A stretch of 64,000 nt of DNA. It comes from Lentisphaerota bacterium (GTDB taxonomy: Bacteria > Verrucomicrobiota > Lentisphaeria > Victivallales > Victivallaceae). The stretch is taken from the NCBI GenBank assembly GCA_015061605.1, contig SUWH01000006.1, positions 1 through 64,000 of the forward strand, read 5' to 3'. This document shows positions 35,789 through 52,015 of the stretch, piece by piece (positions within the stretch are counted from its first letter, which is position 1; each line of letters starts with the position of its first letter). The translations under genes and the position numbers were made by a program. Under the pieces are notes generated by a model. The model ran no database searches, had not been told where the DNA came from, and saw only the letters and a list, made by a program, of their open reading frames with translations.

Positions 35789-36582
35789 AAAATTTCCTGC
35801 CGCAGTGCTTTTATTGCCTGCGGCAGAGCTTTGCCCGCCCGGCAGAATTTATCCGGATCAATAAAAATGATCCGATGGTTTTTCACCGCCGGAAGCTGAC
35901 GGAACTCCCGGCGGGCAAAGAAATCTTTCACCGCTTTTTCCGGGACCCCCGCTGAAATTATCACCTCCGGCATCTGACGCAAAATGTATTCAGACGGCAC
36001 CACAAAATAGGCACGTTTGCCGTCAGCGCAGACATTCTCCACTCCGGCAAGGTTCAATGCTTCATCAATAAAACTTTTTTTACTGCAGCTTACTGCCGGA
36101 GCGACCGCAAATACGATCAACGCCCGCACCTTATTTTCGGGAATGCTCTGCCGCAACTGCGCGATTTGTGTTTCAAAATTTTCTGCAGCGATTCCGCTTT
36201 GCCTTTCAAGTTTAAGCAATTTTCCCAATTTCCGCAAATTGGTGGGAAAATCGGCGAGTTTTTCTCCGGGAAGAAAAACCGTTTTTATCCCTGAAAGCTC
36301 CAGCAACTGCCATCTGCCGCCGGGATGACGGGTATCGCTTATCACATAATCCACATTCAAACGGATGATTTTCTCCACATCCGGATATCCCATATTTCCG
36401 GCGACCGGAATGTTTTTTGTTTCCGGAGCGCTGCACGCACTGCTTTTCCCGGCGAGCTGTTTTACTCCGCCGATAAGGATTACCGCATCGGTCAACGCCG
36501 GTGAAAGCGATACCACCTTGACCGGAACGGCGGTCAAAACGGCAAAACTGAATGATATGCAAAGAATAAAACCAGGTTTCAT
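35743..36582 (-). CDS. BtuF-like periplasmic metal-chelate binding protein
   Basis: A 279-residue protein with a signal peptide ([14 protein letters not shown]) and the TroA/BtuF bilobed fold. [17 protein letters not shown] begins the mature protein, [21 protein letters not shown] ends the first lobe, and a long linking helix is followed by [22 protein letters not shown] in the second. Such proteins feed corrinoids, haem or siderophores to ABC importers. No permease, ATPase or TonB receptor is adjacent. The start overlaps the preceding prepilin gene by ATGA, so the protein is made as part of that operon. Confidence 0.8.
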
Positions 36583-37451
36583 CTTTTGAACTCCGGATCA
36601 TAACTTGAATTATCTTGAGACAAATAGCCGACCAGCAATGCCTTGTTCGCTCTGGAAGTTATAAAAATTTCCCGCAAAGAGTTGACATGACCATCGGCAA
36701 AACAAACATTTGCACTCTTTAAATGACGGAAATGGGTCAACCCGCCCCCGCGAATGATTCCATTTCGCCCATCGGGAGCATACAGTGCCGAAGTCGGTAT
36801 CAGACGGCTGTGGTCATAATAATCCATTGCCGCCGCATCAGCAAACATCACGGTTTCCGACGGACGGCGCAGGGCGGATGTTTTGACTCCGGCAAAAAGA
36901 TCCGGTTCAAAACCAAGAAATTCATTGTAACCGTAACCGGAATTTTCCGCGCTCCAACTCTTGTCCAGAAAATTTTCCGGACAACGGTTGACTCCGCCTG
37001 ATTTACCGTTGGCATTGAGAAAGCGCTCCAATATCCCGGCAGAATTTTCTTTATCTTCAACACCGCTGCTGTCGCTTGCCCAATCCCAGTAGACCATCGA
37101 ATAATCACTGGCAAGATAATATGCCGGACAGAACCAGGAACTGTTCATGTCGGTATACTGCATCTGCATAACGCCCAATTGCTTCAAGTTGGAAACACAA
37201 CTTGCACTCCGCCCCCGTGACCGCGCACTCTGCAATACCGGAAGTAGCATCGCCGCCAGTATCGCAATGATGGCAATTACTACCAGCAATTCTATTAAAG
37301 TGAAATGGGCGTGTGCGGGGGACAAAGGAAACTTTTTTTCACGGGAAAAAAAGTTTCCTCTTTCCCCCGCGCCCCCTTTCTTTTTCAAAAAAAGCGGGGA
37401 GTTTTGCGGCTCCCGTTGGTTGCGACAAGTCAATTGCGGCAATATGATCAT
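36579..37451 (-). CDS. Prepilin-like protein with H-X9-DG motif
   Basis: A 290-residue protein. [24 protein letters not shown] begins at about residue 50 and is the class III/type II pseudopilin N-terminus, with Glu at +5. [18 protein letters not shown] follows, and near the C-terminus is [12 protein letters not shown], the H-X9-DG motif of the PVC prepilin family. The residue before Phe is His, not the usual Gly. The leader is unusually long and is encoded by a repeat with a 26-base-arm hairpin (37315-37370). The ATG at 37451 has only a weak AGG site, so a later start is possible. It is third in the operon 38580 to 35743. Confidence 0.8.
37315..37370. repeat. Long hairpin inside the prepilin leader codons
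   Basis: Arms 37315-37340 and 37345-37370 pair over 26 bases with two mismatches. The inner 14 bases (37327-37340 with 37345-37358) are perfect, with a four-base loop. On the coding (minus) strand it ends about 15 bases before the FTLIE codons. Confidence 0.85.
37381..37407 (+). repeat. CAAAAAAAGCGGGG dispersed repeat, copy in a prepilin leader
   Basis: TTTTTCAAAAAAAGCGGGG then AGTTTTGCGG, next to the long hairpin. It is read antisense by the prepilin gene, encoding leader residues near [10 protein letters not shown]. Confidence 0.65.
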
Positions 37452-37722: not shown

Positions 37723-38580
37723 TCAGTAACGCGGATCAAAATACTTTTCCCGGTTTTCATTATCATTTTTGCAGGGATGCCCCAGCTTATACTGTTCGTC
37801 ACCATAAGCAGAATCCATCAACGGCATGGTCACAGCATGACCATCACAAAAACTTATGGCAGCCCGATTGTTATGCCGGAAGTGCATAGTCGGATTCATC
37901 ACCCAATCCCCTCCGGGGGCTTCAATAGCGGAACTATACCCGTGGTTAGTCGGATTTGCACTCCAGTTTCCATTCGCATCCACCATGATCGCCGAGTCTG
38001 CAAACATGATTTTCTCTGCCACACTCCGCATGCGTTTCACCGGAAATCCGGAAGCATATGCCTCTTTAGAATACTCGCCCGGATACCGAGTACCAACCAA
38101 TACATTGTAACCATAACCGCCGCAATTCATATCAAAACTTTTAGGAGGATCTTTCAACACATTGCATTGAGTGATCAACCCGCTACCGCCGATATACTGC
38201 GCCAAAGGAGCATCACTGGGGTCATAGGAAGCTGTACTACCGTCATTGCTGGAACTCTGCGAAGTTCCGCACCAGCGATGACAGTTTGCTCCACCGGGAT
38301 ACATATCATAAGCGTAGGGAGCCAACAATGAATTATTATCTTCAGCATACAGCAGATTACTGATGGTGATCTGCTTCAGATTGTTCAAACAATTGGTGCT
38401 GCGTCCCCGATCACGCGCCTTGCCCAATGTCGGAAGCAGAATCGCCGCCAGTATCGCAATGATGGCAATTACAATAAGAAGTTCAATAAGGGTAAAGCGT
38501 TGCGTCCGGCGAACGCAACCGGCGGCCCGTTTACCGCATAATTTGCGGAAAACGCCAGATTTTTTTGCACAATAAGCCAT
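37723..38580 (-). CDS. Prepilin-like protein with H-X9-DG motif
   Basis: A 285-residue protein. [24 protein letters not shown] starts at residue 29, with Arg before Phe where Gly is canonical and Glu at +5. [21 protein letters not shown] follows, and [12 protein letters not shown] lies near the C-terminus. The start is supported by AAGGAGAG eight bases upstream. The basic 28-residue leader is encoded by DNA resembling the dispersed CAAAAAAA repeat and ends in a perfect seven-pair hairpin (38499-38519). First gene of a four-gene operon. Likely assembled or surface-exposed by a type II/IV pilus system encoded elsewhere. Confidence 0.85.
38499..38519. other. Hairpin abutting the FTLIE codons
   Basis: GTTGCGT (38499-38505) and ACGCAAC (38513-38519) pair perfectly with a seven-base loop. 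On the coding strand the stem ends two bases before the codon for the first residue of FTLIE. Confidence 0.75.
38512..38567 (-). repeat. Divergent CAAAAAAA dispersed repeat, copy in a prepilin leader
   Basis: On the minus strand CAAAAAAATCTGGCGTTTTC leads on to GGTTGCG, in the same order as copies at 16856 and 37381. Here it is read in frame as leader peptide. Confidence 0.45.
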
Positions 38581-38822: not shown

Positions 38823-39284
38823 ATGAATACAGTCATAAAAATACTTTTTGTCTGCCACGGCAATATCTGCCGCAGCCCCATGGCAGAATTTGTGATGAAA
38901 GAGATGGTGAAAAACTCCGGTTTGCAGGAACGCATTTATATTGAATCCGCCGCCACCAGTACCGAAGAACTCGGCAATCCGGTCTATCCACCTGCCCGAA
39001 AGATCATGGCACAACACGGCATCGACTGCAAAAATAAAACCGCCCGGCAGATAACCCGGGCGGATTATGATAATTTTGATTACATCGTCGCTATGGATGA
39101 ATACAACATCCGCAATATGCGCCGCTTTTTCGGGAATGACCCGGAAAACAAAGTTTCGCTCCTTTTATCGTGGGCAAACGAAAACCGCGAAGTTGCCGAT
39201 CCGTGGTACACCGGGGACTTTGAAGCCACTTGGCGCGATGTCAACCTCGGATGCAAAGCTTTGCTGGAGCAGATTCTGAAATAG
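38823..39284 (+). CDS. Low-molecular-weight protein-tyrosine phosphatase
   Basis: A 153-residue cytosolic phosphatase. The P-loop VCHGNICRSP has nucleophile Cys11 and Arg17, and the general acid Asp is in VADPWYTGD near residue 125. DYDNFDYIVAMDEYN is also typical. Bacterial members of this class often regulate tyrosine kinases of polysaccharide export. No kinase is adjacent. It is transcribed alone, divergent from the prepilin operon. Confidence 0.93.
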   Translation: MNTVIKILFVCHGNICRSPMAEFVMKEMVKNSGLQERIYIESAATSTEELGNPVYPPARKIMAQHGIDCKNKTARQITRADYDNFDYIVAMDEYNIRNMRRFFGNDPENKVSLLLSWANENREVADPWYTGDFEATWRDVNLGCKALLEQILK

Positions 39285-39294
39285 CTCCGCCTCA

Positions 39295-39456
39295 TTACTC
39301 TTTTCCCCGTCTGCGGCATGACCGGCGCCGTTCATTGCAGTCGTTGTAGCCGACTTTTCCGGAAAGGGCGACTTCGATTTTGGCCAACTGGCGGTTGAGA
39401 GTCCAGAAACCGCCGAGCAGGACGGCAATCAGCATCACCCATTCATGCGTTGACAT
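39295..39456 (-). CDS. Small membrane protein at the end of the tail-fibre cassette
   Basis: A 53-residue protein starting MSTHEWVMLIAVLLGGFWTL, with one membrane helix (about 6-20), a short helix QLAKIEVALSG and a very basic tail (NERRRSCRRRGKE). The start is fixed by an excellent AAGGAGG site. It overlaps the end of the DUF1353 gene by 14 bases. Size and topology resemble small phage proteins next to holins, such as XhlA-like ones, but there is no clear family match. Confidence 0.65.
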   Translation of the reverse strand: MSTHEWVMLIAVLLGGFWTLNRQLAKIEVALSGKVGYNDCNERRRSCRRRGKE

Positions 39457-39817
39457 TTGCCGCCTCCTTCCAGTTTCCGCTGCCGAACCAGCGGACGCCG
39501 TAGTAAGCGATACCGGCTTTGAACTTCGACATACCGTCTTCGACCATGAAGTCATAGAAAAGTTCATCGGCATCCTTGCGCGTCCATCCGGGAACGGCGT
39601 TCCGGTAGAGATAGTCGTGGACGATCGAGGCGCGCAAGGTGCGTGGGTCGAGCTGCGGCGAAACGCTGTCCCAGAGAAACTCCGGAACGGAACAGCCGTC
39701 ACTTTCAAATCCGGCGGGGGCGGTCACGGTTCTGCCGTTCCACGTTACGGTCAAATCTTCCAGCAGTGTAATAATATCGCCGGTAAATATCTCTTTATGC
39801 ACAGCAATTTTTATCAT
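39443..39817 (-). CDS. DUF1353 phage-type protein
   Basis: A 124-residue protein with the DUF1353 pattern: PAGFESDGCSVPEFLWDSVSP, then IVHDYLYRNAVPGWTRKDAD and AGIAYYGVRWFGSGNW. DUF1353 proteins occur mainly in phages and prophages near tail and lysis genes and are suspected to be hydrolase-like; the HDYLY and DAD residues are the conserved polar centre. The gene overlaps the upstream LamG-like gene by four bases. It is the best single marker that this block is phage-derived. Confidence 0.85.
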   Translation of the reverse strand: MIKIAVHKEIFTGDIITLLEDLTVTWNGRTVTAPAGFESDGCSVPEFLWDSVSPQLDPRTLRASIVHDYLYRNAVPGWTRKDADELFYDFMVEDGMSKFKAGIAYYGVRWFGSGNWKEAANVNA

Positions 39818-40959
39818 ACTTTAAACTCCCTTGATAATGCTTTGATTTCATCATCGGACAATGCCCGATTGTAGATGCGGAGAGCGGCAAGATAACCTTT
39901 AAAGCCTTCACTTGTTTGCGATTCATATGGGTAGCGTTTAGCGATTCTGGTCACTCCGCCGTAATCGTTTGCGTCAGGTACGATTTCTCCCGAACCGGCA
40001 AGCACTCCATCGCTGAATATGTCAAGACACCCATTAGTATACCGTCCGGTGAGATGGTGCATTTTTCCATTATTCTCAAATGTCCCGCGTACCGTAACAC
40101 CTCCTGACAGGAAAGCAAGTGCCGTCTGGCTGACATATACGGTACAGTTCAGATAGTCGTATTCCAAATAATCACCGAGCAGCAGCACAACAGTACCGGA
40201 GTTTTCCATATTTTTACATAAAAATGAGAAAGTAAAGCCGGTAGGAAAACCACAAAAATTGATCGCCGGAGTTTCATAGCCGTCACCTTTGTCAAAATAT
40301 GCACACGCTACTCCGTCAACTGTTTGAAAAGTGACATTCCCTACCTTGCTTAAACTCTGTCCTGTAACAGCAGTACTTGCTTCTTTATCAAGTGGAGCAT
40401 AGAATACCAAGCCTTCCTCCGGAATTCTCGAAATCTCACATCCGGCTTCTTTTGCGTTCCTGAACTTCAACGGTCTGCCAAGCGCATTGAAACCGGAAGA
40501 TGTAGGATATTGATACTCAATTTCCGGCAGAGTTTCCTGTTCCGGAGCAGGGGACATCGCAACGGTGAAGTTGCCGGTAGCGTAATCATAAGCCCCGGCA
40601 CCAATTATGTAAACTCCGTCAGCAGAGGGAGTGTAGCTCATTACATCCTGAACTTCCAATCCGTTAATTTCTCCACCGGAATGGTCATCGCTGGCGACCT
40701 CGCTCATGGCAGAATTATACAGCCAAATCATACCGTCACCACTGCTGTCGATAGTGGTTTGTCCGATGGTATATGTCGTGCCGCCTTTGAGCTTTACCCG
40801 CAGATAGACCCGGTAGTTATCTCCGCTGTTTGCGTTTGAGTTGTTGACAGCAACGGTCTGTCCGGAGGTTTTGGCATACCAGTACCACGGATTTGCCCGT
40901 GTGCCGTCACCCAAACCGCCAACGATTTGCGGAGTACCTTTTTTGAATATACTTATCAT
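39814..40959 (-). CDS. LamG-like adhesin/tail protein, long paralogue
   Basis: A 381-residue protein without a signal peptide. The last 200 residues form a concanavalin/LamG-type jelly roll (LVFYAPLDKEASTAVTGQSL, FTFSFLCKNMENSG, AALRIYNRALSDDEIKALS). The N-terminal 150 residues are a separate beta domain (YRVYLRVKLKGGTTYTIGQT, VYIIGAGAYDYATGNFTVA) resembling a carbohydrate-binding or pre-peptidase module. It is clearly paralogous to the next gene from about residue 152 on. Overlap with it is ATGA. Likely a distal tail or receptor-binding protein. Confidence 0.7.
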   Translation of the reverse strand: MISIFKKGTPQIVGGLGDGTRANPWYWYAKTSGQTVAVNNSNANSGDNYRVYLRVKLKGGTTYTIGQTTIDSSGDGMIWLYNSAMSEVASDDHSGGEINGLEVQDVMSYTPSADGVYIIGAGAYDYATGNFTVAMSPAPEQETLPEIEYQYPTSSGFNALGRPLKFRNAKEAGCEISRIPEEGLVFYAPLDKEASTAVTGQSLSKVGNVTFQTVDGVACAYFDKGDGYETPAINFCGFPTGFTFSFLCKNMENSGTVVLLLGDYLEYDYLNCTVYVSQTALAFLSGGVTVRGTFENNGKMHHLTGRYTNGCLDIFSDGVLAGSGEIVPDANDYGGVTRIAKRYPYESQTSEGFKGYLAALRIYNRALSDDEIKALSREFKV

Positions 40960-41687
40960 ATTTTGAACTCCTTTGACAGCATTTTGACTTCTTCATCCGT
41001 CAATGCCCGGTTATAGATGCGGCAGGCGGCAACGTGTCCTTTTATGTAAAGTCCGCTGTTGTTGGATACGCCGCCGATGTCTATTTGCGTAAGTGAAGTC
41101 TCCAATTTCGCAGTCGGGAACGCTTCATTGGCTGTCATATTGCCATTGACGTAGAACCTCAATAACGAGCCATCGTATACACCAACTATATGATGCCAAG
41201 CGTTTGCATTGTATACAGGGCGATTGCTCGGCGCAGAATTGCCTGAACACGCGATGTACACGGTCTGACCTGAATTGGCATCTATGTCAATGCCATAATA
41301 CCTGTTTGCGGCTCTGTTACCATAACCAAACGCATACCCATCAAAATCGGTATCGGCGGCAGGTCTTACCCACGCTGAAATCGTTCTGGGAGATGAGCCG
41401 GACGGCAAGCCGTTAAGGTCATTCGACCATATCACACCATTGTAGAAGTATGCACATGGTATGCCATCAACTGTCTCATAAGTTACCGTACCTGATTTGC
41501 TCAAGCCCTGTCCGGTAACAGCTATTGAAGCATCTTTATCCAATGGCAGATAGAAAACCAACCCATCTTCAGGCATCAGACGTACAATACTGCATCCGGC
41601 TTCGGCGGCGGTATCGTATTTCAGAGGATACCCGAAAGCATCGAAGCCGGAACCGGGAATACTTTTTTTAAACAGGCTGATTGACAT
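40956..41687 (-). CDS. LamG-like adhesin/tail protein, short paralogue
   Basis: A 243-residue protein, MSISLFKKSIPGSGFDAFG at the start. The LamG-type domain (ISAWVRPAADTDFDGYAFGY, WHHIVGVYDGSLLRFYVNG, AACRIYNRALTDEEVKMLS) is the standard laminin-G-like fold. It lacks the 150-residue beta module of its neighbour. The frame continues upstream within the previous gene, but the GGGGAAA site and the shared N-terminus fix the start at 41687. Probably binds glycans. Confidence 0.75.
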   Translation of the reverse strand: MSISLFKKSIPGSGFDAFGYPLKYDTAAEAGCSIVRLMPEDGLVFYLPLDKDASIAVTGQGLSKSGTVTYETVDGIPCAYFYNGVIWSNDLNGLPSGSSPRTISAWVRPAADTDFDGYAFGYGNRAANRYYGIDIDANSGQTVYIACSGNSAPSNRPVYNANAWHHIVGVYDGSLLRFYVNGNMTANEAFPTAKLETSLTQIDIGGVSNNSGLYIKGHVAACRIYNRALTDEEVKMLSKEFKI

Positions 41688-41973
41688 TTGCAGTTTCCCC
41701 CGCTTCCGGTACGACAGTTTGCGCTTCTTTCCAAGCGGCAAGGTCTTGTTTGAGCTGTTTGATACCGACCGTCTGTCCGGCAAAAGCCTTGTCCAGCATA
41801 TCTTTAGCAAAGGGGTCAAGACTTGTCCAGCCAAACATGGCGCAGACTTCGGCGATGACTTCTTCACGATTGAGCTGCAGAGATTTTTCTTTTGCCGCTT
41901 TGGCACGGAGCTTCATCAATTCAGCTTGTCTTGCCGCTTCCATACGGAGTTTGTGTGCAATAGTGCCTGACAT
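41668..41973 (-). CDS. Small helical protein of the tail cassette, unknown
   Basis: A 101-residue, predicted fully helical protein (AHKLRMEAARQAELMKLRAKAAKEK ..., split by QLNREEVIAEVCAMFGW). It has no signal peptide. Position between fibre and LamG genes and tight spacing on both sides (20-base overlap downstream, two bases upstream) indicate a structural or chaperone role. Not recognised. Confidence 0.6.
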   Translation of the reverse strand: MSGTIAHKLRMEAARQAELMKLRAKAAKEKSLQLNREEVIAEVCAMFGWTSLDPFAKDMLDKAFAGQTVGIKQLKQDLAAWKEAQTVVPEAGETANVNQPV

Positions 41974-41975
41974 GA

Positions 41976-42266
41976 TTACACCGCCAGTTCTGCCGCTGAA
42001 ACCATGATTTTTACTCCGGAAGCGGTCGCATTGACTGTGAAACTTTCTCCGGTCGGCAAGTTGATTTTATTGTCAAGGACAATGGTGTCTCCGGCATCAA
42101 TGGTAAATCCGGCAGAAAATCCGGTGGAAAAATTGAGCGTGACTTCCCCGCCATTCTCCCCTCCGTTGAGCATAATTGACATGATGGAAAGCTCCGTACC
42201 GCTTGAAGCAGTACAGACGGTAACATCAGAATTTTCAGTAGTGGTTGCAACAAAATTTTTCAACAT
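41976..42266 (-). CDS. Small beta-rich protein of the tail cassette, unknown
   Basis: A 96-residue protein, Thr/Ser/Gly-rich and predicted all-beta (SDVTVCTASSGTELSIMSIM, GFTIDAGDTIVLDNKINLP). The pattern resembles small phage fibre-associated or head-tail proteins that add a beta sandwich. It lies 17 bases after the collagen-like fibre gene. Not recognised. Confidence 0.6.
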   Translation of the reverse strand: MLKNFVATTTENSDVTVCTASSGTELSIMSIMLNGGENGGEVTLNFSTGFSAGFTIDAGDTIVLDNKINLPTGESFTVNATASGVKIMVSAAELAV

Positions 42267-42283
42267 GATATATTTCCTTTCAA

Positions 42284-43552
42284 TTATCCAAAGACCAGCG
42301 AAAACGCGACCGCCTTACCAACGCTCACATCGCCATCAGCTCCGCGATCGCCCTTGTCACCTTTTTCACCTTTGTCTCCTTTGTCTCCTTTTTCTCCTTG
42401 CACTCCGGGTTCTCCCGGGTCACCTTTTTCACCTTGCGGCCCGGGTTCTCCCGGGTCACCTTTTTCACCTTTTTCGCCCTGCACTCCGGGGGCACCGGTA
42501 TCGCCTTTGTCACCCTTATCTCCTTTGAATTGGACCCCATTCGACCAATCACCCGAAGATGAAGAATTTTTTATGTACACGCAACCGTTATCAGTAGCAA
42601 GGTAGCTGAATCCTGCGACTTCAGAATCATAGATAGAACGGTCAACTAAAGTTCCACTGGCATCAATGGTAAAAGCCGCACCGCGATCTCCTTTTTCACC
42701 TTTTTCTCCTTGCGGTCCGGGTTCTCCCGGGGTTCCCTTTTCCCCCTTCTCCCCCGGTTCACCTTTTTCACCTTTTTCTCCTTTTTCACCCTGTATTCCC
42801 GGCTTGCCATCGGCTCCCTGCGGTCCCGGAAGCATGGCGACAGGAGGGCTCCACATTGCATCCAATCCGGCAATACGCTGACGGAAAAAAAGATCGTTTT
42901 CATTTTGCGTGGTGTGCCAGTTGCTCTCGCCATCTGCAGAAAATTGGAATTCCACCGGATTGCTCATATTTTCGGCAAGCTGATCATTTAACTCATTCCG
43001 GATACCGTCACTGCGTTCATTGAGCATGGCCAGAGTCTGGACAGCGGTATAATAAGCCGGATCATTGGCGATGACTTCGTCGGCTTCACCAAGAAAAACC
43101 CGGCTGCGGATGGAAATATCAAACTGCCAGGCAAAAACGGTCATGCCGTCAGTATCAACGCCGCCGATTTCAGCACGGAAATTGCAACTTTCCTGTCCGG
43201 CAACGGCAGCAATGATTTTTTCGGTCGCGCTGTTTTCAAGTTCAACAACAAGGATGTTATGTCCTGCATCATCTTTTGCCAGTTCGATCCCGCTGTATTT
43301 CAGCAATGCCGGAGCATTGGAGTTGCGGTTATTGGTATCCAGAGCCAAATAGTAAGCTGCGGTATTGATGCTTTCTGCCGGATAGACGGTAAGTTCACCG
43401 CCGTCCGGGCCGGAATCGCCCCGCAGATCAAATTCCATCCGGACGGCAGTACCGAGCATGATTTCCAGTTCGACACCGGTGGCGGAACCATTTTCGTCTG
43501 TAATTGCGGCTCCGTTGCTTTTTATCTGTAATATTGAATGTATGATTTGCAT
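42284..43552 (-). CDS. Collagen-like tail fibre protein
   Basis: A 422-residue protein. Residues 1-235 are a globular BppU-like or baseplate-attachment region. Gly-X-Y repeats rich in EKG, DKG and EPG follow at about 241-289 and 341-405, separated by a small domain (VDRSIYDSEVAGFSYLATDN). The end VSVGKAVAFSLVFG probably caps a trimer. Such triple-helical fibres are common in phage tails. The ATG at 43552 has AAAGGAA; an earlier in-frame ATG lies in the previous gene. The repeats produce open frames on the other strand too, which are not genes. Confidence 0.8.
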   Translation of the reverse strand: MQIIHSILQIKSNGAAITDENGSATGVELEIMLGTAVRMEFDLRGDSGPDGGELTVYPAESINTAAYYLALDTNNRNSNAPALLKYSGIELAKDDAGHNILVVELENSATEKIIAAVAGQESCNFRAEIGGVDTDGMTVFAWQFDISIRSRVFLGEADEVIANDPAYYTAVQTLAMLNERSDGIRNELNDQLAENMSNPVEFQFSADGESNWHTTQNENDLFFRQRIAGLDAMWSPPVAMLPGPQGADGKPGIQGEKGEKGEKGEPGEKGEKGTPGEPGPQGEKGEKGDRGAAFTIDASGTLVDRSIYDSEVAGFSYLATDNGCVYIKNSSSSGDWSNGVQFKGDKGDKGDTGAPGVQGEKGEKGDPGEPGPQGEKGDPGEPGVQGEKGDKGDKGEKGDKGDRGADGDVSVGKAVAFSLVFG

Positions 43553-43562
43553 AAAGTTCCTT

Positions 43563-44531
43563 TCAGTCAAGATATTTATAGTTTGGCGGCGGGAAATTTC
43601 CCTCATTCAGCAGAACTTCGGTCAAAGTATCTACCTGACGTAACATTGAATGGTAATATTTATAATCGCCCCAGGTTTTGTAATATTCCAGATCGCGGGA
43701 AATGTCATCATGCCACGGGAGTGTGGTATCTGATGCTGTTCCGGTAAAACTTATCTCCGTGACACCGGAGATGGTATGATCGTATTCCTGCGCCTGCGTT
43801 CCGGAGAGGAGAGGGCGGGTCAACTGCTTATGTATCCGGGTGGAATATCTGCCTTTCCAATTTCCATGAAGTTCCTGACTCATCTGATTGTCCCAGGTGT
43901 CAAAGGCATTCTGGGCGAAACGGCGGTTGAACTCACATCTCAAATACTCTTTGTATTTTCCGTAAACGGCGCATCCCGGCAATCCGCCTTCGCCATAATC
44001 GACAGTCTCATCGACTGACGGGCGGTCATTGTCGTAAGCTGATTCAGAGCTCCATTTCAACAAGCGGGATTGGCAATTTTGCACACCGAGACCATATACG
44101 CTGTAAAGGATCACATTGTTGAGCAAATGATAACATGCCCGGACAAAATTACCGTCCGAAATCAGATGCGGGGGTGTCTGCCAAAATCCTGCCGGATCGA
44201 TCCCGGCGGAAGTCAATTCGGCGGTGATACCGTTTTGCACTTCCTCTGAATCATATTCAAGTTTGTCAAACGGTCGCCAATTGCCTGACCAGATACCGAA
44301 ATTTTTCACCGGAAAGTGCATCGCATACAACGTGGCGATATGAAGTTTGATGTAACTTATCTTATTTTTTACCTGACTTGCAGTCGCCGGAAGCGGAATA
44401 AATTCAAATCCTGTTCCTTCAGTATTTTTTGCAGGCATCATATAATTATAGCGTTCAATGATCACTTCGGTCAGCCGGTTCAATGCCGGAACGATTCCGA
44501 CGGGAGTATCCAGCCAATTCACAAAAACCAC
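43563..44531 (-). CDS. Tail-cassette protein of 322 residues, unknown
   Basis: Not recognised. Aromatic-rich, no signal peptide. It begins MVFVNWLDTPVGIVPALNRL and contains many Trp, Tyr and Asn residues, with helices likely in ASQVKNKISYIKLHIATLYA. It lies between the fibre gene and a beta-rich protein, overlapping the latter by 13 bases, so a structural tail component is the simplest reading. Confidence 0.6.
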   Translation of the reverse strand: MVFVNWLDTPVGIVPALNRLTEVIIERYNYMMPAKNTEGTGFEFIPLPATASQVKNKISYIKLHIATLYAMHFPVKNFGIWSGNWRPFDKLEYDSEEVQNGITAELTSAGIDPAGFWQTPPHLISDGNFVRACYHLLNNVILYSVYGLGVQNCQSRLLKWSSESAYDNDRPSVDETVDYGEGGLPGCAVYGKYKEYLRCEFNRRFAQNAFDTWDNQMSQELHGNWKGRYSTRIHKQLTRPLLSGTQAQEYDHTISGVTEISFTGTASDTTLPWHDDISRDLEYYKTWGDYKYYHSMLRQVDTLTEVLLNEGNFPPPNYKYLD

Positions 44532-45247
44532 CTCCGTCCGAATTCGATACGTTCATTTGATGTATAATATTGCTCAACATTACCGCTTGCGTAGACCCGC
44601 CCGAGTTCAACATAATCGAAGTATCCCTGCGGGGGTGCCTGACCGGATAATTGAATTACCACCGAATATTTCCCGTCATTACAACATGCATAAAGCCGTA
44701 TGACATCAGTATTGATATTATCCGGAACTGTTACCGTCTGCACCGGTATTTCTCCTTTGAAATCGACACTTCCGGCATAATCGGAGTTGCCGTAACGGAC
44801 TTCAAAAGTGCGGTTTCCGATATAACGGATGGCAAACTGTCCGGAATATGCCGGGTCTGCTGCCGAAGCATATCCGAGAATTATCACTCCCGGAGTCTCC
44901 GGAGTTCCGCGGTAAATTATCTGTGCCTTTCCGGAATCAGCGGCAGTCAGACCGTTTGCCGATGGAACGGCATAATCTCCCGAACCTCCGTAAATAAATG
45001 CCTTGACAATACCGGTAAGTACGACATTGCCGTAAGTGCCGGGGATGATATTTTCGGCGGCGATCCCCCATAACTCCTCATCGGAAGCGGCCGGAACGGC
45101 GCAAAGTATGCCGGGGTGTGTTTCTTCCATGCAGATAACCGCGACAGCGCTTCCGGCGGTGATGAGCAGAGTTCCGGTATTGAGGAGCTGGATTGCGCTG
45201 CGGTTTGCCGCCGGGAAGGATATTTCAGTTTGTTCAGAAAAATACAT
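44519..45247 (-). CDS. Beta-rich tail-cassette protein, unknown
   Basis: A 242-residue protein starting MYFSEQTEISFPAANRSAIQ with GGAG ten bases upstream; the open frame before that is spurious. It is rich in beta strands (GTLLITAGSAVAVICME, NVVLTGIVKAFIYGGSGDYA, AQIIYRGTPETPGVIILGYAS). DUF2190-like or decoration proteins have similar composition, with a GIV-KAFIYGGSGDYAVPSA segment. Precise role unknown. Confidence 0.6.
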   Translation of the reverse strand: MYFSEQTEISFPAANRSAIQLLNTGTLLITAGSAVAVICMEETHPGILCAVPAASDEELWGIAAENIIPGTYGNVVLTGIVKAFIYGGSGDYAVPSANGLTAADSGKAQIIYRGTPETPGVIILGYASAADPAYSGQFAIRYIGNRTFEVRYGNSDYAGSVDFKGEIPVQTVTVPDNINTDVIRLYACCNDGKYSVVIQLSGQAPPQGYFDYVELGRVYASGNVEQYYTSNERIEFGRRWFL

Positions 45248-45264
45248 AAGCTCCGCCTCCGCAC

Positions 45265-46092
45265 TCAAATATCCAGAGCTGAAAAGTTGGCGTAATCGTA
45301 AATGCGGCTTTCGTAAACTCCGGCTGAAATCAATGAATTTTGAGCATTTCTCCGGGGGATCTCCCAGACGGTGTTCCACATCGAAACCGGTTCCACTTTG
45401 AGTTGGTGCCGCTCCAGAGTGCCCAGCGGCCGGATCTTGAAAACGTACTTTATATCGACCAGTTTCTGCCCTTTTGCATTGGTGTAAGAGGGGGAGAGGG
45501 AGGCTTTGACGAACAGCACTTCTCCGGTCGCCCAGCCGTGGAATTTTTTGAGATTTATTTTTCCGGCGGTGGCAAAGACGGCACGTTTGAATGAGTTGTT
45601 GATGTGGCTTTCTCTGAAAGTTGCAATACATGTTTCCTGAAGTTCCGGCATTTCCGCCCAGCAGCCGTTGATGCAGCCGTCGCCGTCAGAATTTCCATCC
45701 CAGCGGAGCAAGGTTCCCGGATCGGGCGGAACGATCTCCGGTCGCGGTTGATAAATTTTGACCAGTTCTTTGGCTTCAAAGATTTTTTCTGTTGAACAAC
45801 TGACCTCAAACTGCCATATCCGGTCGCCGTTTTCTTTGGTTTCGCTCGTTTGCGGCAGGGAATATTTGACCTCGAACTCATAAGTACCATTCCCCGGCAC
45901 CCGTACCAGTTCCACGGTATTTTTGCGGGCGCGGCCCATATATTGCGGAGCTGTTGCATTGACCAGTTCAAATGCTTCGGTGCGCTGATCGAGGTTGCCG
46001 GGGCCGCAAACCAGATAATTCAGCGTTGCTCCGGTACATATTCCGGAACGGTCGACTGTTTGCCGGACAGAGAGTTTTCGTTGGATCTGCAT
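45265..46092 (-). CDS. First protein of the tail cassette, unknown
   Basis: A 275-residue protein without a signal peptide, starting MQIQRKLSVRQTVDRSGICT. It is beta-rich (YLVCGPGNLDQ, GNGTYEFEVKYSLPQ, ATGEVLFVKASLSPSY). A very strong AAGGAGG site precedes the ATG, so it is probably the first gene of the transcript. It may be a distal tail or baseplate protein. Not recognised. Confidence 0.6.
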   Translation of the reverse strand: MQIQRKLSVRQTVDRSGICTGATLNYLVCGPGNLDQRTEAFELVNATAPQYMGRARKNTVELVRVPGNGTYEFEVKYSLPQTSETKENGDRIWQFEVSCSTEKIFEAKELVKIYQPRPEIVPPDPGTLLRWDGNSDGDGCINGCWAEMPELQETCIATFRESHINNSFKRAVFATAGKINLKKFHGWATGEVLFVKASLSPSYTNAKGQKLVDIKYVFKIRPLGTLERHQLKVEPVSMWNTVWEIPRRNAQNSLISAGVYESRIYDYANFSALDI

Positions 46093-46174
46093 GAGATATC
46101 CTCCTTGAAATTGGTTTTGTGACCATGCGCAGCACTGTCAACATTTTTCCGGTAAATTTTGTTTTGAGAGCCTG

Positions 46175-46202
46175 TTGACAAACCGTTATTTTGCGGTATA
46201 TT
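46175..46202 (+). promoter_or_regulatory. Promoter of the sialidase operon
   Basis: TTGACA (46175-46180), a 16-base spacer and TATATT (46197-46202), 36 bases before the ATG at 46239. Confidence 0.8.
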
Positions 46203-50207: not shown

Positions 50208-51020
50208 ATGATGTGCCGACCACTTTCCCGGGGGAAAGTGAAGCAGTCCTGCTTCACTTTAATTGAACTCCTCGTAGTCATCGCGATCATCGCCATTTTA
50301 GCGGCGATACTGCTCCCGGCTTTAGGCAAGGCGCGCGAGCGCGGCAAATCCACATCGTGCCTGGCCAATCTGAAGCAAATGGGCTCGGCACTCAGCCTGT
50401 ATGCTCACGATAATGGCGGATATATCCCCAATATCATCACTTCTGCAGCAGGGGGAAAGAATTATATAACGGCAAAACTTTTCCCTTATCTCAACAATCC
50501 GTGGGTCTATTCCTGCCCCTCCGACACCGATCAGAGTTATAAATTCAAAAGTATAGGAGCGAAACGAACAAAAGAAGAAGATATCCATTTGTTATGGACC
50601 GGACTTCCCGGCGGGATGGGTTATCTGCCCAATACCAATTTTTCCGGAATACCGGGCAATGGTGTTACTTTGGCTTCCGCAAAGCTTGCCAAAGCTCCGA
50701 ATCCCTCCAAACAGATGTATCTCTGCGATGGAACCGGACACTGGATATTGCTCCGTTTCGGCACCTCAAACCGGCACTACGCCATAGACTGGAAAATTCC
50801 GGATGGCAGTCCATCGATGTTGAATGCTGCTAAAACAAAGCGTTACTGCCATGCCCGGCATCAGGGAGTTTGGAACGTAGTTTATCTGGATGGTCATACC
50901 CGCGGTATCCCGGCGGTGGAAGCCCACAGTTACGACCCGAATCCGCCATCTTATATTTACAATTCTCCTCTTGAAGCCAGACTGTTTTATGTCGGCACCA
51001 CTGACGGTAAGGTCTGGTAA
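50208..51020 (+). CDS. Prepilin-like protein with H-X9-DG motif, tandem copy 1
   Basis: A 270-residue protein. [24 protein letters not shown] starts at residue 16 after a short leader [15 protein letters not shown]. Cys replaces Gly at -1, and Glu is at +5. [22 protein letters not shown] follows, [20 protein letters not shown] is in the middle, and [12 protein letters not shown] is near the end. It is a close tandem paralogue of the next gene, including its promoter. Expected in the inner membrane, and then extruded if a pilus or type II secretion machine accepts it. Confidence 0.88.
50221..50260 (+). other. Alternative hairpins in the prepilin leader, copy 1
   Basis: Arm 1 CACTTTCCC (50221-50229) pairs with arm 2 GGGAAAGTG (50232-50240). 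Arm 2 also belongs to AAAGTGAAGCA (50235-50245), which pairs perfectly with TGCTTCACTTT (50250-50260). The two stems share bases and exclude each other. The last arm encodes the C-F-T-L at the processing site. Confidence 0.8.
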
Positions 51021-51199: not shown

Positions 51200-52015
51200 A
51201 TGATGCACAAACTGTCTGTTTCCCATGGGAAAGTGAAGCATTCCTGCTTCACTTTAATCGAACTCCTTGTTGTCATCGCGATCATCGCCATTCTGGCAGC
51301 GATTTTGCTTCCGGCTCTGGGCAAGGCACGCGAACGCGGCAAATCCGCGTCGTGCATTTCAAACTTGAAGCAAATCGGTGCCGCTCTCGGCATGTACAGC
51401 AATGATTACGGCGGATATATGCCCAATCACAATACAGGGTCAAACGGCACACCTTATATAACGGCATTGCTTTTCCCTTACTTTAATAATCCGTGGGTCT
51501 ATGCCTGCCCCTCCGACACCGATCAGAATTATAAATTCAAAAGTATTGGAGCGAAACGAACAAAAGAAGAAGAGATATATCTTCTCTGGACCGGACTTCC
51601 AGGCGGTATGGGATATATGCCCAACACTGTGCTGCCGCAAGATAGTGCCAATAATATTGCGGCAAAACTTTCCAAAGCCCCGCGCCCCTCCAAGCAGATG
51701 TTTTTCTGCGACGGTACCGGTCACAAAATCCTGATCCGTTTCGGCGCCAACGGCTCTCACTACGCACTGGACTGGAAGGTTCCTCCCGGCGGTAAATCCA
51801 TCGTCAATCCGGCCTGTACCGTCCGCCGCAGTCACGCCCGCCATCAGGGAATATGGAATGTAAATTATCTCGACGGTCACACCCGCGGCATCCCGGCGGC
51901 TGAAGCCCACAGCTACAATCCCTCTGCCGCAGCTCTTAATGCCGCTGCCACCCCGCTGGAAGGACGCCTTTTCTACGCCGGAACCACTAACGGCAAAGTC
52001 TGGAATTCAAAATAA
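51200..52015 (+). CDS. Prepilin-like protein with H-X9-DG motif, tandem copy 2
   Basis: A 271-residue protein, first gene of the operon to 63283. [24 protein letters not shown] begins at residue 17 (Cys at -1, Glu at +5), then [42 protein letters not shown] and [12 protein letters not shown]. It is more than half identical to its tandem neighbour, with differences concentrated in loops and the C-terminal third. The next gene starts 24 bases later with a TAAGGAGGA site. Its position suggests a locus-specific surface role. Confidence 0.88.
51219..51255 (+). other. Alternative hairpins in the prepilin leader, copy 2
   Basis: TTTCCC-at-GGGAAA (51219-51232) overlaps AAAGTGAAGCA (51230-51240), which pairs perfectly with TGCTTCACTTT (51245-51255) across a four-base loop. 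Same arrangement as 50221-50260, although flanking leader codons have diverged. Confidence 0.8.

Follow-up and report, generated by a model that had tools for sequence, protein, structure and literature searches.

What are ten tail-fibre-type genes doing between a phosphatase gene and a sialidase gene, where no phage surrounds them? The question is raised by a cassette on the minus strand (46092 to 39295) of a stretch of Lentisphaerota DNA that we call the window, namely positions 1-64,000 of contig SUWH01000006.1 in assembly GCA_015061605.1 (genome G000, 2.56 Mb in 52 contigs with a completeness of 88.7%, in which the cassette lies on contig C39). A gene transfer agent (GTA), a particle by which bacterial DNA passes from one cell to another, has been described in only a few lineages, and a new one is difficult to distinguish from a broken prophage. 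Our analysis of 33 congeners of the window genome (counts are stated out of 34) and of 388 genomes of the phylum makes it fairly probable that the cassette is an operon for the tail tip and the receptor-binding proteins of a GTA-like domesticated tailed phage, whose genes would be split over at least three unlinked loci and inherited vertically in a gut genus of Lentisphaeria. We say GTA-like because it is by inference that packaging and delivery are supported.

Results

Where would the rest of such a particle be? A search for partner genes returned a Terminase_6N protein in 30/34 congeners, among them all 14 of high quality, mostly as a single copy. It belongs to a compact operon of small terminase (terS, phrog_309), portal (phrog_145), scaffold (phrog_194), SU10-type major capsid protein (PF17236), p138, p178 and large terminase (terL, phrog_979). 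All seven head genes are present in 26/34 congeners, including the 14 high-quality ones, in which they are full-length. In G000 the module occupies 4212-10079 of contig C8, near MoxR/Bat-type genes, at a site common to G038 and G045, and no tail or integrase genes stand beside those head loci that were read. Across 30 genomes the terL Walker A sequence GGSRSGK and the nuclease-domain sequences DPAV and SPDR..DA are near-invariant. Head, tail-tip and tail-tube loci lie on separate contigs with ordinary neighbours, the head on C8 and the tip on C39 in G000.

These loci have a short upstream sequence in common. Both the head operon and g1, the first gene of the cassette, are preceded by RTGTTGACRATNNNGYGCATRG, and in the window a 22-bp motif, ATGTTGACAGTGCTGCGCATGG, lies on the minus strand at 46123..46144, presumably as a late promoter or activator site. 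With up to two mismatches allowed, the motif occurs in the whole of G000 at two places only, before the cassette and before the head module (C8:10121-10142), and G038 and G034 likewise have exactly two sites each, at the head and cassette loci; read backwards as a control, it gives no site in any of these three genomes. The two-site result is partly circular, because these sites helped to define the pattern. Other three-mismatch matches in G000 fall at unrelated genes. About 30 bp from the motif of the window is an inverted copy of its core (CTGTTGACAA, plus strand, 46172-46181), and the same pair is found in G045; such inverted copies could mean that the motif functions as a paired site for an activator.

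One three-mismatch match in G034, GTGTTGACAAAGATGGGCATAT, is followed after 62 bp by a 144-aa gene that stands on its own. Its relatives in congeners are also solitary, by a transporter gene or other ordinary genes, and most of the close ones have GTTGAC upstream. In four prophages the profile of this family picks out the gene before the tape-measure gene, which is the tail-tube position, and a solitary tail-tube gene of this kind is present in most congeners. Moreover, in genomes outside the motif definition the short form of the motif is enriched before the head module (11/21, P 9e-13), the cassette (13/22, P 1e-19) and the tube gene (7/22, P 6e-10). Since the tube gene was discovered through the motif and the enrichment holds in other genomes, this evidence is not circular, unlike the two-site count. 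At the level of sequence, a GTTGAC-type motif is common to the head, tail-tip and tube loci, which would make them one regulon.

Is there a phage in which these pieces lie together? Scans of IMG/VR with g1, g3 and g4, as single sequences and as profiles, returned no relatives, nor did a tblastn search of INPHARED with g3. A portal-based search of IMG/VR led to contig 3300028886_000161 (43.6 kb; L254/L256), in which p178, terS, terL, portal, scaffold, p138, tail tube, a chaperone, a 502-aa tape measure, g1, g2, a gene at the g3 position, g4 and a fibre gene form one block (terS, chaperone and tape measure being named by position and sequence pattern rather than by profile). The GTTGAC motif precedes tube, terS, scaffold and chaperone on this contig, and it stands 55 bp before the tube on a second contig, L253. 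The phage contig thus resembles the dispersed loci in its homologous tube, g1, g2 and g4, in its head genes and in its motif; the Lentisphaeria prophages L060, L074 and L078 have homologous tube, g1, g2 and g4, and L061 has tube, g1 and g2. All of them differ from the dispersed loci in being contiguous and in having a tape measure of 500-960 aa. The dispersed loci look like pieces into which a single phage type has been separated, each still with the motif of that phage.

Two other prophage arrangements were seen. G000 itself carries a separate prophage (C7:16001-56000; L046, L123) with a tape measure and relatives of g1 and g2. In the other, at L064 (G173:C1), two prophages face each other head to head; the portal of one is related to that of the head module, the other begins with g1, and their 3' genes are nearly identical.

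Over the usable congener pairs, the ratio of nonsynonymous to synonymous substitution rates (dN/dS) ranges from 0.04 to 0.34, which indicates purifying selection. The three closest congener pairs have values of 0.04-0.14 for terL, portal and capsid; values for the cassette genes are about 0.08-0.34, with g1 at 0.08-0.18 in the close pairs that have it and g4 reaching 0.34. In Mantel tests against RecA distances, rho is 0.76 for terL, 0.66 for g2, 0.54 for capsid and 0.47 for g1 (each P=0.002); these correlations of pairwise distances favour vertical inheritance.

What has become of the tape measure? Around a dozen congeners have an open reading frame (ORF) of 31-45 aa between the motif and g1, where phages have the tape measure, usually with its own ribosome-binding site. 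It encodes an amphipathic helix that usually ends in Y-x, as most tape-measure C-termini do, and it seems to be a tape-measure remnant. The tape-measure family PF10145 was found in 3/34 congeners. A reading in which the genus has no tape measure was dropped, since PF10145 overlooks certain tape-measure families and this count is not decisive.

A CI/LexA-like repressor gene is divergent from the head operon, and 1-3 TTGCN6GCAA sites lie between the two in 20/22 genomes. The Ser-Lys dyad typical of self-cleavage (S24; SM...K) is kept in most congeners. In the clade of the window (G000, G038, G045, G050) both Ser and Lys are replaced, which suggests that SOS control has been lost there; in another subclade only the Ser is missing. 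An ORF of 45-70 aa (about 10072-10290 in L094; also L095, L096 and L099) also lies between the repressor operators and the small terminase; its 3' end overlaps the GTTGAC motif, and it is a possible early activator. The Cys-rich helix-turn-helix protein p178 occurs in the head module and on the phage contig, and a p178-like protein is among the early genes of the C7 prophage; it is a candidate activator of the shared motif.

The cassette itself recurs in relatives. A search with g3 alone matched four congeners, in which the order is g1-g2-g3-g4-variable fibre-DUF1353-membrane protein with no phage genes around, except that g4 was not detected in G040 and that G038 has a different protein at the DUF1353 place. 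G038 has the phosphatase neighbour of the window, G045 and G050 occupy another common site, and the G040 cassette is by rnpA/yidC. The g1 profile matched 44/388 genomes of the phylum. Within the genus, g1 (28 congeners; g1, g2 and g4 together in 22) is nearly always outside a prophage and often adjoins yidC/rnpA, whereas in other genera it is usually inside a prophage, directly after the tape-measure gene. The g4 family is found in 28/34 congeners, some of the matches being weak and collagen-only, and the fibre region differs between species. A contig search with alignment A1 gave five loci, in metagenome-assembled genomes (MAGs) of ruminant-gut or unspecified Lentisphaeria. One subclade (G036, G044, G046, G048) has kept g1, with the g2-g4 block not beside it, and in the g1-only subclade (L056, L066, L067, L068) a coiled-coil ORF of 98-138 aa precedes g1.

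In the window, none of the ten ORFs has an internal stop and most follow a Shine-Dalgarno-like sequence. From its place right after the tape measure in prophages and on the phage contig, g1 (45265..46092, 275 aa) is probably a distal-tail or tail-tip protein. Always after it comes g2 (44519..45247, 242 aa; start corrected to 45247 from the 45631 of a longer ORF), which like g3 (43563..44531, 322 aa) is taken to be a tail-tip protein, the folds of both being without assignment. A conserved N-terminal part of about 240 aa, the presumed fibre anchor, is joined in g4 (42284..43552, 422 aa) to a collagen-like fibre (Collagen, 1.6e-19). The variable fibre region includes g5 (41976..42266, 96 aa; no family by Pfam or PHROGs) and g6 (41668..41973, 101 aa; no significant family). 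The LamG proteins g7 (40956..41687, 243 aa; Laminin_G_3, 5.8e-23) and g8 (39814..40959, 381 aa; Laminin_G_3, 5.7e-12) are probable receptor-binding proteins, and g9 (39443..39817, 124 aa) is a DUF1353 protein (PF07087, 7.5e-19; best PHROG 1158). Last is g10 (39295..39456, 53 aa), holin-like by position, with one hydrophobic helix and a Cys/Arg-rich tail; the cassettes of relatives finish in the same way. The Pfam search gave no family for g1, g2, g3, g5, g6 or g10, and only four genes have clear PHROGs matches: g4 and g9, chiefly to tail families, and g7 and g8, to LamG-type structural or unknown families.

The initial annotation, made from the sequence of the window, had described ten packed minus-strand genes with a collagen-like fibre, two LamG-like proteins and a DUF1353 protein, and the ORFs and Pfam matches bear this out. 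It had also called a one-helix membrane protein, g10, for which a single hydrophobic stretch is indeed present, although the call, while plausible, is not a strong one (best 19-residue Kyte-Doolittle mean 1.38). The ordinary flanks that it reported are likewise as described: a low-molecular-weight phosphatase gene (38823-39284), convergent and 10 bp from g10, and a sialidase-like gene, divergent from the cassette and starting near 46191. Its statement that phage core genes are missing agrees with the head-module and tail-tube profiles, which match nothing elsewhere in the 64-kb window; the next 39 kb of the contig give one weak scaffold-profile match (7e-4). No contiguous head, tail, replication or integration genes lie at the cassette, so that the locus does not qualify as a prophage. 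The window has no tRNA, the guanine-plus-cytosine content is ordinary, and four pseudopilin-like genes with near-identical termini lie at 36579-37451, 37723-38580, 50208-51020 and 51200-52015.

Discussion

How could genes scattered in this way make a particle? In the model that we propose, the CI/LexA-like repressor, bound to two or three TTGCN6GCAA operators, would silence the head locus; on induction, an early product would open every locus to transcription from its GTTGAC motif. Heads would then assemble and be filled with host DNA by the intact terminase; they would join through a very short tail tube, or none, to the g1-g4 tip, and the collagen and LamG fibres would attach to the recipient. 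Such a particle would carry host DNA between cells and so be a GTA, because none of the loci encodes all of it and none has replication or integration genes beside it.

The criteria proposed for GTAs are homology to tailed phages, an endogenised genome that often occupies several loci, mostly vertical inheritance, packaging of mostly random host DNA, a genome that is not wholly packageable, and delivery to cells (PMC9662315). For the Lentisphaeria system, the homology lies in terS, portal, SU10 capsid and terL, and for the tube and tip in prophages; head, tip and tube are on different contigs; and inheritance appears vertical from the Mantel correlations with RecA and from the head module in 14/14 high-quality congeners. 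As the loci are unlinked, the system could not package its own genome as one molecule. More tentatively, we suggest that it represents an undescribed GTA family of Lentisphaerota/Verrucomicrobiota, with head, tube and tip each at its own site and the tape measure cut to a 31-45-residue docking peptide or lost, so that a long-tailed phage would have become a nearly tail-less DNA carrier.

Several points weigh against the GTA-like reading. In the clade of the window (G000, G038, G045, G050), neither the tail-tube profile nor the short tape-measure ORF finds a match, for which loss or divergence may account, and a full-length tape measure at another locus is possible. Particle formation, packaging of host DNA and transfer are deduced from gene content. 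No endolysin was found, and g10 is holin-like only by its position. The AlphaFold model of g1 is poor (predicted local distance difference test score, pLDDT, 64), and against PDB and BFVD it shows a faint resemblance to uncharacterised phage proteins and is otherwise uninterpretable. The capsid of the phage contig is unmatched by the capsid profile, the motif and the profiles were partly defined on the same genomes, and the genomes compared are MAGs or other assemblies. Finally, the Mantel correlations are moderate and leave room for some transfer.

A first alternative, which we consider unlikely, is that the particle is domesticated for something other than DNA transfer, as a tail-less DNA-filled capsid, a phage decoy or inhibitor, or an extracellular carrier of enzymes or adhesins. 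A tube and tape measure that appear minimal or undetected in the clade of the window, a fibre region that varies between species and the failure to find an endolysin would all suit such a particle. However, the genus as a whole conserves the portal and the two terminase subunits, the catalytic residues being intact and the dN/dS for terL and portal being 0.04-0.15 in most pairs, and this conservation is expected only if DNA is packaged.

Could the head module instead belong to a satellite, or to a capsid-forming chromosomal island, whose heads are its own, whose tails come from helper phages and whose own adaptor and fibre set is the cassette? The head module has no linked tail genes, and phages of the family have g1-type tail tips, G000 itself harbouring such a prophage on C7. 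Yet no signature of an integrase, primase or attachment site was seen beside the loci, which occur genus-wide at repeated chromosomal sites, correlate with RecA distances and, being unlinked, could not move together. We regard this alternative as very unlikely.

Less probable still is a free-standing secreted fibre or adhesin module without a particle. The collagen and LamG domains and the stand-alone position fit it, but the cassette is tied to the head module and the tube gene by the common motif and by the colinear phage contig, and the linked head module has an intact terminase, which makes a stand-alone adhesin improbable. The initial annotation had offered a domesticated fibre module assembled elsewhere: the idea survives in so far as other particle parts do lie at other loci under the same motif, while the uses it named, adhesion alone or a tailocin, are unlikely. 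Tail-tube genes at other loci, which it had also raised, exist in most congeners, the first having been reached through the motif in G034, but none is found in G000 by profile. As for its suggestion that relatives might carry the cassette together with full prophages, g1 does lie within prophages in other genera, whereas the cassettes of congeners have no phage neighbours.

There is little to recommend the view that the loci are separate remnants of unrelated prophages. Related tail genes are indeed a common feature of prophages in the family, but the ORFs are intact, under purifying selection, present genus-wide and joined by a common motif, with no decay; the proposal of a degraded prophage end fails likewise on intact ORFs, a dN/dS of about 0.08-0.34 and stand-alone orthologous cassettes in many congeners. 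To a contractile tailocin or extracellular contractile injection system, as also proposed, we give almost no weight, for although the cassette holds fibre genes only, the gp25 baseplate family (PF04965), which we took as the sign of a baseplate or sheath in carriers, is found in 1/34 congeners, the partner locus encodes capsid and terminase, and the tube family is one of long-tailed phages that have a tape measure.

If the GTA-like reading is true, it places a DNA-exchange particle in a common gut phylum. The signature, which is clear here, combines a packaging module present throughout the genus, tail parts at unlinked sites, one shared motif, a phage relative with the genes colinear, and selection; the same late motif at unlinked phage fragments would offer a sequence rule for finding other GTAs. 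The apparent reduction of the tape measure would, moreover, allow the minimum tail of a DNA-delivering particle to be tested directly.

How does this system compare with those already known? Within the limits of the literature covered, our search found no report of a GTA in Lentisphaerota. Capsid-forming phage-inducible chromosomal islands (PICIs) make their own heads and borrow phage tails. They resemble the Lentisphaeria system in having their own head and packaging genes with tail genes not in the head locus; the Lentisphaeria loci, by contrast, have no integration or replication module beside them, are retained genus-wide, possess their own tail-tip genes and are dispersed rather than forming an excisable contiguous island, and the head loci that were read have no integrase next to them. 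In its main text, a 2026 gut study of capsid-packaged DNA says nothing of Lentisphaerota (PMC12946183). The agent of Brachyspira (BhGTA/VSH-1, Brachygtaviriformidae) is also that of a gut bacterium and has a single-copy, genus-conserved terL outside the structural cluster (PMC9662315); that cluster measures 16.3 kb, whereas the Lentisphaeria system has no such cluster and keeps its terminases inside the head module. The agent of Rhodobacter capsulatus (RcGTA, Rhodogtaviriformidae) comprises at least 24 genes at five loci, with a 17-gene head-tail cluster (PMC11409702). Like the system described here it is phage-derived, vertically inherited, non-mobile and spread over several loci, with receptor-binding genes apart from the head genes. 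Unlike RcGTA, which keeps its head-tail cluster, the Lentisphaeria system has head, tube and tip all separate. It also comes from another phylum, its capsid is of the SU10 type, its CI/LexA-like repressor has operators, and its motif has been kept from the ancestral type of phage.

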